Shown: positions 15,639 to 20,722 of the stretch, in pieces
How the letters are laid out: the number at the start of each line of letters is the position of its first letter
Position numbering within the stretch: position 1 is the first letter of the stretch
Source of the DNA: Chloroflexota bacterium
Lineage (GTDB): Bacteria; Chloroflexota; Anaerolineae; B4-G1; DUEL01
Direction: 5' to 3'
Assembly: GCA_014874475.1 (NCBI GenBank)
Contig: JADBJJ010000012.1
Location: 160,657-224,656, forward strand
Length of the DNA: 64,000 nt
Translations under genes and position numbers: made by a program
Notes under the pieces: model-generated
Databases searched by the model: none
What the model was told of the DNA's origin: nothing
What the model saw: only the letters and a program-made list of their open reading frames with translations

Positions 15639-16958
15639 TCACTCCTTCAGCAACTGGAGCAATTCGTCCAGCGAGGTGACGCTGCGCACCTGCTGCAGGA
15701 AGCGGCGGGGGTCTTTTTCCGTCATCTTCCAGGCCCGCCGGACTGCCGGCCCGACGGGGTCTTTTCCCGCCGCCCCCATCGGTGCGGCGGCATAGGAACC
15801 GTGGAAGGAGAAGTAGGCCTGGTTCAGTTTGCGAATGCGGTATCCATGCTCCCAGAAGAACTGGCGGCGGCGTTCCATGTACTCTTCTGCCTCTTCTATT
15901 CGCCCCTGGAGCAGCAGAGCGTCCACCCGGATGCGCGTCTCGTGCATTTCCCGATTGAAATCAAAAGCGGTGGGGTCAGGGGGCGGAGGGGGCGAGGCGG
16001 AGGATTCCTCTTCTTCAGCCCAGGGTTCCTTTGATGGCGCCAGGTCGGGGTAGTACTGGACCAGGGTGCGGCGGGCGATTTCCCAGCCCACCAGCGACGC
16101 GACGGTCTCATTGATGACCCGCGCCTCCCAGTTTCCCTCGTACTCCCAACCCAGGGGGAAGAAGAGCAGGTAATGGTGAGTCCACTCGTGGGCCGCGACT
16201 TCTGTCCACCACGGGAGGCTGGGGAACTCCAGCACCATTGCGGGCCAGGCTGAGAGCCCCCCAATCGGCGTCACCAGTGAGGAAAGGCCAAGGGACTGAT
16301 CTATCTGGCTCTCCAGGGCGTCGGCACGGTCGGCAGTGAGGCCCGGGACCAGTTCGGCCTGGTAGATGAGCGTGATTCGTTCCCGGAGGGAAGCAACAAG
16401 GACGTAGGGGAGCGGGGTAATGTGAATGCCGACCGGGGGAGCCGGCTGGCCCAGAAAGCCGGAGGCGTTCCGGGCCAGCACCACACCGACCTGCTCTTCT
16501 ATGATGGCCTCCGCAATGGGTTGCCGGACTGCAATCTCCCGACGCAGTCGGTCCCTTTCAGCCCGCATCTGCTCGGTGGCTTTGAGAGGGTCCCGAACAG
16601 ATGGGTCAGTGTAGGCTTCGTTGATTTTTCCCTCCAGCCGCCGGACTTCTTCTACGCGCTTCACCCAATCCCGCACAAAGTGGCATCGGTCGGATTCCGC
16701 CATATACCGCTGTGGTTGCAGAAGCCAGAGGGTGAACTTATCCCAGAGAACCTCCGCCTCCCAGCCCCAGAAGTTGAAACGGAGGTCGGTAACCAGCCGA
16801 TCTGCCCGGGTCTTCAGTGCACTCGGCGGTGCTCCTTCGCCCTCCAGACCCGACGCAACAGCCAGGAGCAACATCAGAAGGGCAGTCCGGTAGGCCGACC
16901 ATGAGAACCGGGGGATGGGGAAATGGAAGGGAAAACGGATCGTTTTCAGGATTTTCAT
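15639..16958 (-). CDS. Membrane-anchored putative zinc metalloprotease
   Basis: 439 aa from ATG 16958 with GGAGTGAAGG upstream. An N-terminal signal anchor (TALLMLLLAVASG) is followed by a long helical, charged region with KRVEEVRRLEGKINEA. The HEWTHH motif (AAHEWTHHYLLFF) supplies two His ligands, and INETVASLVGWE about 25 residues later supplies the probable third Glu ligand, a gluzincin-like arrangement. An acidic Ser/Pro-rich loop (EEEESSASPPPPP) precedes the C-terminal helices. I know no named family. It is placed 3 bp after the DUF2085 gene and 1 bp before the subtilase gene. It may process exported proteins together with the subtilase. Confidence 0.75.
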   Translation of the reverse strand: MKILKTIRFPFHFPIPRFSWSAYRTALLMLLLAVASGLEGEGAPPSALKTRADRLVTDLRFNFWGWEAEVLWDKFTLWLLQPQRYMAESDRCHFVRDWVKRVEEVRRLEGKINEAYTDPSVRDPLKATEQMRAERDRLRREIAVRQPIAEAIIEEQVGVVLARNASGFLGQPAPPVGIHITPLPYVLVASLRERITLIYQAELVPGLTADRADALESQIDQSLGLSSLVTPIGGLSAWPAMVLEFPSLPWWTEVAAHEWTHHYLLFFPLGWEYEGNWEARVINETVASLVGWEIARRTLVQYYPDLAPSKEPWAEEEESSASPPPPPDPTAFDFNREMHETRIRVDALLLQGRIEEAEEYMERRRQFFWEHGYRIRKLNQAYFSFHGSYAAAPMGAAGKDPVGPAVRRAWKMTEKDPRRFLQQVRSVTSLDELLQLLKE

Positions 16959-16961
16959 CCT

Positions 16962-17774
16962 TCACTCCAGTCCCGGGACTCCAGTGATGGTGCCGGTCAG
17001 CGCATAGCGGACAAGGTCCACCAGACCCACCAGCAGGAAGGCCAGAACCAGCCCGAACAGGAGGGGGGTAAGGGCGTCCCGCCACTGCTCATACCGATTC
17101 TCCCGCCCGGCTATAATGACAATGATGACTGTCATCGTCAACGTCAGCAGGGTCAGCACGCCCAGGGCACTGGTCAGCGCCAGGGGATAGAGGAGAGCCG
17201 ACCAGCCACTCAGCACCAGGGCCACCACAGCCGCCTCCATCAGGAGCAGGATGCCCAGGTCTTTCCCGTTCTGGATGACCGGTTTGGGGAGTGGGTTGCG
17301 CCAGAGGCTGAAATGGACCATTGGCCACAGAAGCGCAGCCAGGGCCAGGCCGTTCAGCGCGCCGGTCATTAGACGGAGTTCATTGCGGGGTTCGTAGAAG
17401 AGCGGAGTGCCTCGCATTAGGTTCACGTAGGAGTTCAGGCCATCTATACCCATAATCCCGATAAAACTGACCAGCAGAACGGTGATGGCCGGTGGTGGTA
17501 AAGAAGTCCCCCGGCGGCGAAGGAAGACGGCCTGGCCGAACAGCGCGGTCAACGCGCCCAGGAAGGTGCCCGTACAACGGGCGCAGAGGGGCAATTGCCG
17601 CTCAGCGAGAGAAAAAGAGTGGGAAGGAATTCGGTGGCAGACGGCGGCGGCGACCCAATCCGCTTTAACCAGCAGGCCCGGCGGGGTGAAGTCTACGTAG
17701 GCGCCGATCACCAGGACGGCCAGCGCAAGGGCAACCCAGAAGGTCCAGCGATAAGGGCGGTGGGTGGCAGTCAT
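16962..17774 (-). CDS. DUF2085 family membrane protein
   Basis: 270 aa from ATG 17774 (a TTG at 17789 is an alternative). The DUF2085 cysteine signature is clear: VCHRIPSHSF then LPLCARCTGTF in the first third. About seven hydrophobic helices are present. The conserved Cys/His set between the first two helices suggests metal or redox binding, but no function is established. The start overlaps or abuts the DUF192 gene stop, and the next gene begins 3 bp downstream, so it is inside an operon of export and proteolysis genes. Confidence 0.8.
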   Translation of the reverse strand: MTATHRPYRWTFWVALALAVLVIGAYVDFTPPGLLVKADWVAAAVCHRIPSHSFSLAERQLPLCARCTGTFLGALTALFGQAVFLRRRGTSLPPPAITVLLVSFIGIMGIDGLNSYVNLMRGTPLFYEPRNELRLMTGALNGLALAALLWPMVHFSLWRNPLPKPVIQNGKDLGILLLMEAAVVALVLSGWSALLYPLALTSALGVLTLLTLTMTVIIVIIAGRENRYEQWRDALTPLLFGLVLAFLLVGLVDLVRYALTGTITGVPGLE

Positions 17775-17781
17775 ATAGAAA

Positions 17782-18147
17782 TCATTCAAACTCCAGGAGG
17801 TCTCCCACCGATACCTCTCTCAGCAGTTCCGGGGGGCCCTCCAGAATGTCCCGGGCGGGAGCGCGCGGAGCGTAGAATGGCCGGAACGGGCGGGCCAAGA
17901 CGGTATCCACCACCCGCCCCGTCCGGTCCAGCCAGATGGCAGCGATGGGGAAAAAGACAAAGAGCATATGGATGGCTGCTTCTGCGCGGTTTTCCCGCGC
18001 GCCGACCAGCAGGAGCGCTTCTCCTGGCGACAACCGCCGGCGGAAGGTCAGCCCGCGCAGGCGGCACAGGAAGGATGCGCACCGCCGCGCCCGCACCGGG
18101 AGGGTGGTGCCGCGCGTCCGATTGTGGATGGATAGCCAGCGGGACAT
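17782..18147 (-). CDS. DUF192 family protein
   Basis: 121 aa. DUF192 traits are visible: CRLRGLTFRRRLSPGEALLLV, IHMLFVFFPIAAIWLDRTGRVVD and a proline-rich PFRPFYAPRAPARDILE, ending with a short strand (VGDLLEFE). The family forms a small beta barrel of unknown role and is often exported, but no signal peptide is seen in this copy. No Shine-Dalgarno sequence is visible; the region upstream of its ATG at 18147 is a GTGAAACGTGAAG-type repeat. It lies between the PrsW-like and DUF2085 genes. Confidence 0.8.
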   Translation of the reverse strand: MSRWLSIHNRTRGTTLPVRARRCASFLCRLRGLTFRRRLSPGEALLLVGARENRAEAAIHMLFVFFPIAAIWLDRTGRVVDTVLARPFRPFYAPRAPARDILEGPPELLREVSVGDLLEFE

Positions 18148-18149
18148 GG

Positions 18150-18178
18150 TGGGAAAAGGGAAACGTGAAACGTGAAGT
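18150..18178. repeat. Iterated GTGAAACG motif
   Basis: GAAACGTGAAACGTGAAG between the PrsW-like stop and the DUF192 start. The same motif family recurs at 40013-40051 (inverse orientation) and, degenerate, at 55650-55675. Confidence 0.55.
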
Positions 18179-19389
18179 TATCGGGCGGGAGGGGGTTGTC
18201 CCAGGCGATGGCTGGCCCAGAGAAGAGCGATGGTGACCCCACAGGCCAGCAGGGCCAGCAGGGCCAGCAGGGCCAGCATCAGGAGGCCAGCCACTCCCAT
18301 CCATACCACGTCATCGGCCCGGGGCAGCATCGTCAGGCCCAGCAGGACCATCCCGGCCGCGCAGGAATTCCACAGGCTGTGAAGCGTCACCGCGCCCACA
18401 AAGGCCAGCGGGAGCCGCCAGGGCCATCGCCCGGCCCACCACTGGCCCCATCCCCAGCCCATCAGGCCGCCAGTGGCGCAGTGCATAACGGTCGCCATTA
18501 GACGGCCCAGCACCCCCGGCCCCCACGCAGGGCCGACGAAGATGCCGTTGAGCATGTTCTCCGCCAGGGCAAACCCCGCACCGGATGCCACGCCCAGCAG
18601 AAATGCCCGGGCTGGAGAGGGACGGATCCAGAACCCCGCCAGACCGACCCCCAGTGTCTTGGTAACCTCTTCCACCAGCGGCACCAGTCCGCCAATAAAG
18701 ACCAGCGCGATGAGCATCAGGGAGGGGGGCAGTTGCTCCAGCAGATCTTCTGTGTCAGTGGGAAAGGAGGGTTCCCCGCTCATAAAGGCCTGCGGCATCT
18801 GCTGGAGCCATTCCGGAAGGAGCCCCAGCGCAGATAGACCGAGAGCCAGGGAGAGGGCCAGAGCAATCTCTATCACCAGAGCGGTGCCCGTACCCAGGAG
18901 CGCGCCGGCCAGCAACCCGCCGCTCACGTCCGACCAGGAGACATCGCGTCCGCGCAATCCCCATCCCACAAGAGTGAGGACCAGAGCAGGGAGAAGGAGC
19001 AGGGTCGGCGCATGAAAGAGGGCCATCAGGAGCGGTGGGGTATCCAGCAGCGAGGCCACCGTCCCGGCGACCAGGAGGAGGGCGAAAGCCACCCAGAGCC
19101 AGCCGGATCGCCGAAGGCGAAAAGGCGCGGAGGGAATGCCCCTTTGCTTCCGTATCCCCTCGGCGATCAGGACAAGCCCGAGGCACACGCCCAACACCCC
19201 CATTGCAGCGGCCTGGAGAAAGGTCATCTCGCCAATGTCCATCTCGCCACTCTGGAGTGGATCGGCGAAGACCAGCAGGATGGCCAGTACTATGCCACCC
19301 GTGACAACCAGGCCGCCAGCGAGGATGCTCAATAGTCCCAGGAGTTGAGCAAAGGAAGATCGGTTGGGAGCGCCGTCTGATAGTGCCAT
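18178..19389 (-). CDS. PrsW family intramembrane metalloprotease-like protein
   Basis: 403 aa with about ten membrane helices. The PrsW signatures are in order: EEVTKTLG (EExxK), GFALAENML (FxxxEN type), and His residues in TVMHCATGG and GAVTLHSLWNS. PrsW proteins cut membrane substrates such as anti-sigma factors. Here it follows the DsbA/cyclophilin lipoprotein gene by 25 bp, so they are probably co-transcribed. No convincing ribosome-binding site precedes the ATG at 19389. Four tandem 9-bp units near the 3' end encode an ALL-repeat in the last helix. The actual target is unknown. Confidence 0.82.
   Translation of the reverse strand: MALSDGAPNRSSFAQLLGLLSILAGGLVVTGGIVLAILLVFADPLQSGEMDIGEMTFLQAAAMGVLGVCLGLVLIAEGIRKQRGIPSAPFRLRRSGWLWVAFALLLVAGTVASLLDTPPLLMALFHAPTLLLLPALVLTLVGWGLRGRDVSWSDVSGGLLAGALLGTGTALVIEIALALSLALGLSALGLLPEWLQQMPQAFMSGEPSFPTDTEDLLEQLPPSLMLIALVFIGGLVPLVEEVTKTLGVGLAGFWIRPSPARAFLLGVASGAGFALAENMLNGIFVGPAWGPGVLGRLMATVMHCATGGLMGWGWGQWWAGRWPWRLPLAFVGAVTLHSLWNSCAAGMVLLGLTMLPRADDVVWMGVAGLLMLALLALLALLACGVTIALLWASHRLGQPPPAR
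18244..18279. repeat. Tandem 9-bp repeat (4 copies)
   Basis: GGCCAGCAG three times then GGCCAGCAT, inside the PrsW-like gene; encodes repeated LLA in the final membrane helix. Prone to slippage by whole codons. Confidence 0.7.
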
Positions 19390-19414: not shown

Positions 19415-20665
19415 TTAACGTTCCTCCACCTGCACACTTTCAATCAATAGCCCCGGCGGGGCGGTCGGGTCGGCGGGATTCCGCTCCGGCAACGCCTGAA
19501 GAATCTCCATTCCCTTCACTACCTTCCCGATAATGGTATACCGCCCATCCAGGTCAGGTTGAGGGGCCAGCGTGATGAAGAACTGGCTGCTGCCGGTGTT
19601 GGGGCCGGCGTTGGCAATACCCACGACCCCCGCCGCGTCGAACTTCAGGTCGCCGATTTCATCATCGCATTGGAAGCCCGGGGTTCCAGCAGCCGTCCCG
19701 GTCGGATCGCCGGCCTGGACGACGAAGCCCGGGATGACGCGGAAGAAGGTCGTCCCGTCGTACCAGCCTTCCCGGGCCAGGAAGACGAAACTGTTGACGT
19801 TGAGAGGGGCCTGGGAAGGGTAGAGTTCTATTAAGATGTCCCCTCTGGGCGTGCGAATGGTGGCGACGTACTGACGGGTTGTGTCAATCTGAAGGGCAGG
19901 CGGCGCGCTGTAGAGATGGGGATCCAACAAGGCCAGACTGATCAGCGCGTTGAGCCCTTGGTAGGAAATCCCCCACTGATCCGTAGGATACAGCCGTCCG
20001 TTTATTATGAAAGACGGTGTGCCCGTCAACCCCATGGCGATCGCGTCCTGGTACTGTTCTGCCACCTTCGCCTGGAACGTATGTTCCTTCAGATCACGGC
20101 TGAAGCGCTCCACATCCAGTCCCAGTTCCTGCGCGTAGCCCGCCAGGACTTGGGGCATCTGATCAGGGGAGAGGGAGGCCCATTCCTGTTGCCGCTGGAA
20201 GAGCAAGTCGTGCATCTCCCAGAATTTACCCTGGGCGCCGGCGGCCTCAGCCGCTTCCGCCGTAATCTGGGCCTTATCGTGAATGCTGGTGAGCGGGAAG
20301 TGCCGGTAAACAATCCTCAAATTGTCCTCGTGCGTTTCTTCCAGAAACGCCAGCAGGGGCTCCACCCCTGCGCAGCCCGGTCATTGGAAGTCCGAATATT
20401 CTATCAGTGTGACCGGCGCGTCTGCCGGGCCGCGCACCCAGTCCGCATCGGTGACCGGCGGGACGTCCAGCGCGGGCAGAGAGGCGAAGATAGAGGGGAC
20501 GGCCCGACAGGCCGCTGCTGCGGCACCTGGGGTAGAGGTTGAAGGTAGCGGGGTCGCGGTGGAAGGCACGGTGGGGACATTGCTGGTCGGTGTCGCTCCC
20601 CTCTGACAGCCTGTTAGCAGGCTCAGTCCGACAGCCAGCAGAAGCGGAACAAAGGTTTTTCTCAT
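19415..20665 (-). CDS. Selenoprotein candidate: DsbA-like thiol oxidoreductase fused to cyclophilin, lipoprotein
   Basis: 416 aa when the in-frame UGA at 20383-20381 is read as selenocysteine 95; the track shows it as two ORFs (20381-20668 and 19415-20365) in one frame. The start is ATG 20665 with AAGGAGG 5 nt upstream. Parts: a lipoprotein signal with lipobox LTGC (Cys20), a Ser/Thr/Pro linker, and a DsbA-like thioredoxin domain (VTLIEYSDFQ-U-PGC, then YRHFPL, GKFWEMHDLLF and the cis-Pro segment GLTGTPSFII). A cyclophilin domain follows (GDILIELYPSQAP, FFRVIPGFVVQAGDPTG, SSQFFIT). UGA replaces the first Cys of CxxC, the usual Sec place in redox proteins. It would oxidise, reduce or isomerise disulfides and speed proline isomerisation outside the membrane. 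It heads the protease-rich operon. Confidence 0.85.
20353..20383 (-). promoter_or_regulatory. UGA codon plus bacterial SECIS-like hairpin
   Basis: The UGA is at 20383-20381. The next 16 nt lead to a 5-nt apical loop UGGAG, closed by a perfect 7-bp stem GCAGGGG/CCCCUGC (20371-20365 with 20359-20353). The loop has G at position 2, and the UGA-to-loop distance lies at the short end of the range published for bacterial SECIS elements. A lower pairing CCGG with CUGG, leaving the UGA at the base, is also possible. Confidence 0.75.
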
Positions 20666-20722
20666 CAATCCTCCTTAAAAATAAATCTACGAAGTTTGCC
20701 CAGCGGTATCACAACCGACTCG

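Follow-up and report, generated by a model that had tools for sequence, protein, structure and literature searches.

Gene Layout and Domain Architecture

Analysis of the window, i.e., the whole 64,000-nt stretch of Chloroflexota DNA presented above, led to a coding frame on the minus strand that runs from 20665 to 19415 and is open apart from codon 95, a TGA that is its only in-frame stop (Table 1). The two ORFs that the sequence-only reading had joined are therefore one frame split only by this UGA. The peptide around it reads VTLIEYSDFQ-U-PGCAGVEPLL and, since the UGA occupies the first position of the CxxC of its relatives, the motif here is UPGC; the TGA is aligned with their Cys codons, as had been proposed. 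UGA is a normal stop elsewhere, since the neighboring gene at 15639-16958 (minus strand) ends in TGA, and the earlier statement that it is not a general sense codon stands. When the window was scanned for further frames with TGA read-through close to Cys motifs, only antisense or chance frames came up. A PrsW-type protease gene, which is the downstream neighbor here, adjoins the fusion gene in loci L109 and L127 too, and the flanks of L102 to L127 gave no functional partner gene elsewhere.

Table 1. Features of the fusion gene, its surroundings and the selD gene of the same genome (hairpin positions in brackets are numbered with the U of UGA as 1).
Feature	Position	Strand	Details
Whole coding frame	19415..20665	-	ATG 20665 to TAA 19417-19415; 416 aa with predicted Sec at codon 95
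AAGGAGG, Shine-Dalgarno-like	20670..20676	-	4 nt upstream of ATG; from sequence
Signal peptide with lipobox LLTG-C20	20606..20665	-	Predicted lipoprotein anchor; read from sequence
Cys53, second conserved cysteine	20507..20509	-	Just ahead of the thioredoxin domain
Thioredoxin_4/DsbA-like domain	19943..20446	-	Residues 74-241; Pfam PF13462 90 bits, PF01323 64.7 bits
In-frame UGA, predicted Sec95	20381..20383	-	First position of UxxC; sequence and alignment
Resolving Cys98	20372..20374	-	Predicted partner of Sec95
Hairpin 1	20353..20371	-	7-bp stem GCAGGGG/CCCCUGC (13-19/25-31); loop UGGAG 20364-20360, 16 nt past UGA
Hairpin 2	20332..20350	-	8-bp stem GCGUUUCU/AGAAACGC (34-41/45-52); apex U-GGA-A at 20343-20339
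Cyclophilin-type peptidyl-prolyl isomerase domain	19478..19861	-	Residues 269-396; Pfam PF00160 134.5 bits
Cys333, cyclophilin domain	19667..19669	-	Presumed Cys53 partner; co-occurrence
PrsW-family intramembrane protease	18178..19389	-	Downstream neighbor, same strand as fusion gene
DUF192 and DUF2085 membrane-protein genes	16962..18147	-	Further along same strand
Own selD (L018), itself a selenoprotein gene	G000 contig C1:121458-122381		One in-frame UGA (ASCAG-U-AGKL)

A DsbA-like/cyclophilin fusion on a lipid anchor had been proposed, and the lipobox, PF13462/PF01323 and PF00160 do lie in one frame. A low-complexity linker separates the hydrophobic leader (LLTGC, Cys20) from the Thioredoxin_4/DsbA-like domain, and the column of the lipobox Cys20 holds Cys in 71% of 134 relatives. 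Both domains score above the Pfam cut-offs (PF01323, 25.6; PF13462, 23.2; PF00160, gathering score 21.7). T216-P217 is unvaried in the alignments and, judged by sequence, matches the predicted position of the cis-Pro motif of thioredoxin folds. For the fusion protein, AlphaFold2 gave a confident model with a pLDDT of 91.1 and a pTM of 0.82, and Foldseek with this model matched cyclophilins in the PDB (E-value = 1e-15), with 3jb9_d among the PDB relatives of the cyclophilin domain. The motifs GWYDG, FRVIPGFVVQ(A)GD and SSQFFIT are visible in the cyclophilin sequence, being read by sequence and not placed on a solved structure.

Apart from the active-site pair, a second set of cysteines varies in concert. 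In raw counts, uncorrected for relatedness among the 134 relatives, Cys53 occurs together with Cys333 in 45 and with an interdomain Cys at 254/255 in 43, while 43 have none of these and three are exceptions. This co-occurrence suggests that Cys53 may be disulfide-bonded to a partner that can be exchanged, which would tie the linker to the cyclophilin, and that this partner has probably switched between domains.

Conservation of the UGA and Selenocysteine Machinery

Relatives were searched in 396 genomes of the same class. Matches at E ≤ 1e-40, which are end-to-end homologous fusions (weaker matches may be DsbA-only), were present in 307 genomes, and among the listed matches, counted manually, 54 of the 396 genomes have a relative with exactly one internal TGA and none has one with TAA or TAG. 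In each of the 60 distinct TGA copies that were read, the TGA aligns to this codon. A Cys codon (TGC or TGT) is aligned to Sec95 in most of the other relatives, which is what the sequence-only reading had anticipated for residue 95. Scanning of public genome contigs gave 80 related loci with TGA at the aligned codon in seven and Cys codons in most others, and in a phylum-wide sample matches at E ≤ 1e-70 were confined to the same class. The two nearest relatives, from congeneric genomes at 87% and 83-84% protein identity, share the TGA; their dN/dS against the window gene 3' of the UGA is 0.059/0.529 = 0.11 and 0.075/0.805 = 0.09, similar to that before the UGA. The conserved TGA and a dN/dS of ~0.1 past it thus indicate that the downstream half is translated and selected.

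The source genome (3.0 Mb, 97.7% complete, a draft of 32 contigs) encodes all the genes that the sequence-only reading implied: selA (581 bits, cut-off 268), selB (310 bits, or 343.9 including the C-terminal part, cut-off 242), selD (328 bits, cut-off 125) and, as selC, a tRNA-Sec (72 bits, cut-off 47) for which ARAGORN reported the anticodon tca (UCA). Full-length selA was found in 46 of the 54 genomes that carry a TGA copy (manual count); five of the remaining eight have selB above cut-off, and three, which are 67-78% complete, have neither selA nor selB. In f2, another family of the order, selA above cut-off is absent from all genomes, selB was found in none of the eight tested, and all 18 copies among the matches listed are free of internal stops, with no TGA copy. 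One TGA in the SelD gene is a common feature of the class. In the own SelD gene, two hairpins lie in tandem, of which the second bears a GGU-type apex at a distance from the UGA similar to that in the fusion gene; the best stem of the SelD genes of the class (30-46) is weak and, with only 19 genes recovered, a lead.

Downstream Hairpins and the Candidate SECIS

The published model of bacterial SECIS elements has a loop of 3-9 nt with G in the first two positions, a spacing of 16-37 nt and an MFE ≤ -7.5, and the bSECISearch-type consensus has an N1-G[G/U]-N-N2 apex on a 3-9 nt loop with a stable upper stem (PMC13188914). The sequence-only reading had taken a 7-bp stem with a UGGAG loop 16 nt after the UGA (hairpin 1) as the SECIS. 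That hairpin is present, folds at -15.5 kcal/mol against -5.4 ± 2.6 for synonymous recodings of the same peptide (p = 0.003) and fits the model here, but a second, better conserved hairpin at 20350-20332 (hairpin 2, apex region UCUGGNAGA) had been overlooked, and hairpin 1 is probably not the main SECIS. Hairpin 2 folds at -9.8 kcal/mol (p = 0.003 against synonymous recodings); the recoding test used 300 draws from each gene's own codon use, so that 0.003 is the lowest attainable p. Both hairpins of the window gene carry a GGA apex and both agree with the SECIS model, hairpin 2 only when its U-A closing pair is counted in the loop, which then begins 37 nt past the UGA (38 nt if the pair is counted closed).

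Comparison among the TGA copies separated two types. Type A, to which the window gene belongs, comprises 40 copies by pair counts, or 39 once L144 had been reassigned to type B on visual inspection. Hairpin 2 shows 97-100% pairing at its inner six pairs in type A, compensatory pairs (G-C, U-A, C-G and A-U) at columns 37-38 and 48-49, and a nearly invariant apex, UCUG[G/U][U/A/C]AGA, in a region that varies freely in the Cys copies. It ranks 1st of 399 candidate 6-bp stems (0.493 vs. a mean of -0.48, s.d. 0.18) and is the only hairpin predicted by RNAalifold for this type. No stem emerged from the Cys copies, and a stable hairpin at this site (-7.5 kcal/mol or lower) was found in 0 of 55 of them. 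Type B (~19 copies) lacks hairpins 1 and 2 and has a hairpin at 20-26/33-39 with a CCGUG apex, the best of 399 stems within its set, which places the element 22-23 nt past the UGA; members with hairpin 1 only have it at 16-17 nt. All three placements fit the published model, hairpin 2 at its very edge (upper limit 37 nt). Since the classes were defined by pair counts, scanning for stems within them involves some circularity, from which the invariant apices, the contrast with the Cys copies and the synonymous-recoding test are free. Type A has the apex, loop size and stable upper stem of the bacterial SECIS consensus (PMC13188914) and differs from it in its two tandem hairpins and a conserved apex at 37-38 nt.

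These patterns point to hairpin 2 as the best-supported SECIS, most likely the one read by SelB in type A, while hairpin 1 may shorten the path from the UGA to the apex, or may be a second or older SelB site. The converse arrangement, a Sec protein with hairpin 1 as the SECIS and another role for hairpin 2, we regard as unlikely. Its spacing of 16 nt and UGGAG loop accord with the model (PMC13188914), it is the more stable of the two in the window gene (-15.5 vs. -9.8), and L137 and L161 have hairpin 1 alone, its GG apex lying 17 nt past the UGA; the window gene and these two loci argue against a strict exclusion of hairpin 1. Across the 39 type-A relatives, however, the space of hairpin 1 folds stably (-7.5 or lower) in 37 with a sliding register and no fixed G[G/U] in the loop, whereas hairpin 2 has a G[G/U] apex, which the Cys copies lack, in all 36 stable cases and tops the covariation scan.

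Alternative Readings of the UGA

The UGA itself can be read in other ways. A TGC or TGT is one base away from TGA and the source is a draft of 32 contigs, and a codon misread or decayed to TGA with a dead downstream part could be imagined on these grounds. Nevertheless, the same TGA occurs in the congeners and in more than 50 other genomes, and its retention across independent assemblies already refutes a pseudogene or sequencing error; with dN/dS at ~0.1 past the UGA and a conserved RNA structure 3' of it in TGA copies only, the probability left to this account is negligible. It is very improbable that the UGA is a true stop between a 94-aa lipoprotein and a protein of 316 aa that begins with the GTG at 20365, possibly as a selenium-dependent switch between a short and a long form. 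Such an ORF exists mechanically, and reduced Sec supply is generally expected to terminate translation at Sec codons; yet in the Cys relatives the fusion is one unbroken frame, initiation at 20365 would strip the active-site motif and the export signal from the second protein, and the hairpins are conserved as a SECIS would be. That a reassigned or suppressor tRNA decodes the UGA as Trp or Cys is barely credible, even if the codon is in frame and other UGA recodings occur in bacteria, given that the neighboring gene stops at UGA, that the genome has all sel genes and a tRNA-Sec with a UCA anticodon, and that UGA is found only where relatives have Cys and never at random sites.

Selenocysteine at the attacking position, as first proposed, is supported by the sel genes and tRNA-Sec, the alternation of TGA with Cys codons, the dN/dS of ~0.1 past the UGA and the conserved hairpins. 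We consider it very probable that the gene encodes a lipid-anchored extracytoplasmic selenoprotein, with a Sec95-Cys98 DsbA-like redox domain, a tethered cyclophilin and Sec insertion directed by a hairpin.

Sec/Cys Exchange and Possible SECIS Movement

Sec and Cys have been swapped at least 12 times on the family tree. Mapped onto a FastTree phylogeny of 132 relatives, the Cys label requires 18 changes, SecA 14 and SecB nine, of which well-supported branches force 12, 12 and seven, respectively; these counts give no direction. Cys copies are free of the type-A and type-B hairpins, except for a few. L025 has a TGC codon and an intact type-B hairpin (7/7 pairs, -10.8 kcal/mol), L115 retains the greater part of hairpin 2, including a UCUGGAAGA apex, and L105 and L118 bear weaker SECIS-like remnants; the four look like recent Sec-to-Cys reversions with a fossil SECIS. 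Genome G285 has two Sec copies, one of type A and one of type B (L107 and L131), both of which a single SelB would need to serve. Loci L172-L174, L176, L181, L182, L185, L186, L043, L046, L055 and L060 have Asp, Glu, Thr, Ser or Ala at the Sec/Cys site; such paralogues, with neither Cys nor Sec, are probably active-site-dead, with the fusion kept.

We give an even chance to a broader hypothesis, in which the SECIS would have moved among at least three positions (loop at ~16, 23, and 37 nt) via intermediates that, like the window gene, have two GG-apex hairpins, repeated swaps between Sec and Cys would leave decaying fossil SECIS in Cys copies, and hairpin 1 would make the long-range element work by shortening the path between UGA and apex.

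Putative Function and Relation to Known Families

During translation, the UGA at codon 95 would be placed before a conserved hairpin in a genome with SelA, SelB, SelD and tRNA-Sec, codon and hairpin both being seen in the sequence. SelB would bind the G[G/U] apex, most likely that of hairpin 2, and insert Sec, and hairpin 1 may shorten the distance from the ribosome to hairpin 2. After export, Sec95 and Cys98 would form a redox pair for making, breaking or shuffling the disulfides of exported proteins, and the tethered cyclophilin would isomerize prolyl bonds of the same clients; we infer a role as a combined folding catalyst. The source genome gave no match to PF07884, the VKOR partner looked for in the case of a DsbA oxidase, and encodes a CcdA/DsbD-type membrane protein, which therefore favors a reductase or isomerase of exported disulfides. 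Such a role appears at least as likely as that of an oxidase, and electrons would most likely flow from or to the CcdA/DsbD-like protein. The Cys versions presumably do the same job in relatives that lost Sec, or do not use it here.

DsbA-like selenoproteins with a UxxC motif have been listed since 2005 (PMC1088965, PMC1794560, PMC5029168, PMC13188914). The window protein has in common with them (form 1, PF01323) a DsbA/Thioredoxin_4 domain, Sec for the first Cys of CxxC, a downstream, here predicted, SECIS and Cys homologues, and belongs to that form by a PF01323/DsbA-type domain above cut-off with U95-P-G-C98. No prolyl isomerase is named in those listings, whereas the window protein adds a cyclophilin and a lipoprotein anchor. 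NCBIfam NF041057 (Rcas_1661 (seleno)lipoprotein) shares, by its family name, the lipoprotein nature, the thioredoxin-like domain and the alternation of Sec and Cys. It aligned with residues 19-226 at 105 bits (98.8 in the genome search), below its curated cut-off of 190, and its 247 positions are without the cyclophilin that the window protein has; the literature search found no paper on Rcas_1661. Cyclophilin-type isomerases (PF00160; bacterial PpiA/PpiB) have the same domain, which the window protein fuses with a thiol oxidoreductase behind a single lipid anchor. A limited set of papers gave no mention of a DsbA-cyclophilin fusion. The novelty claimed by the sequence-only reading is narrowed accordingly: DsbA-like UxxC selenoproteins are known (PMC1088965, PMC1794560, PMC13188914) and a related NCBIfam model exists, while the cyclophilin fusion appears to be undescribed as a selenoprotein. 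What appears to be new here is this fusion and the shifting position of the SECIS.

The bacterial selenoproteome thereby gains an apparently undescribed fusion, a tethered Sec-DsbA/cyclophilin, whose Sec form occurs in about one in seven genomes of a large Chloroflexota class and whose gene ordinary annotation rules are liable to split into two false genes. The family documents Sec/Cys exchange in nature at unusual density, with at least 12 forced changes, along with SECIS birth, relocation and decay. With SECIS elements recorded at known positions, the recognition rules of SelB outside E. coli become directly testable.
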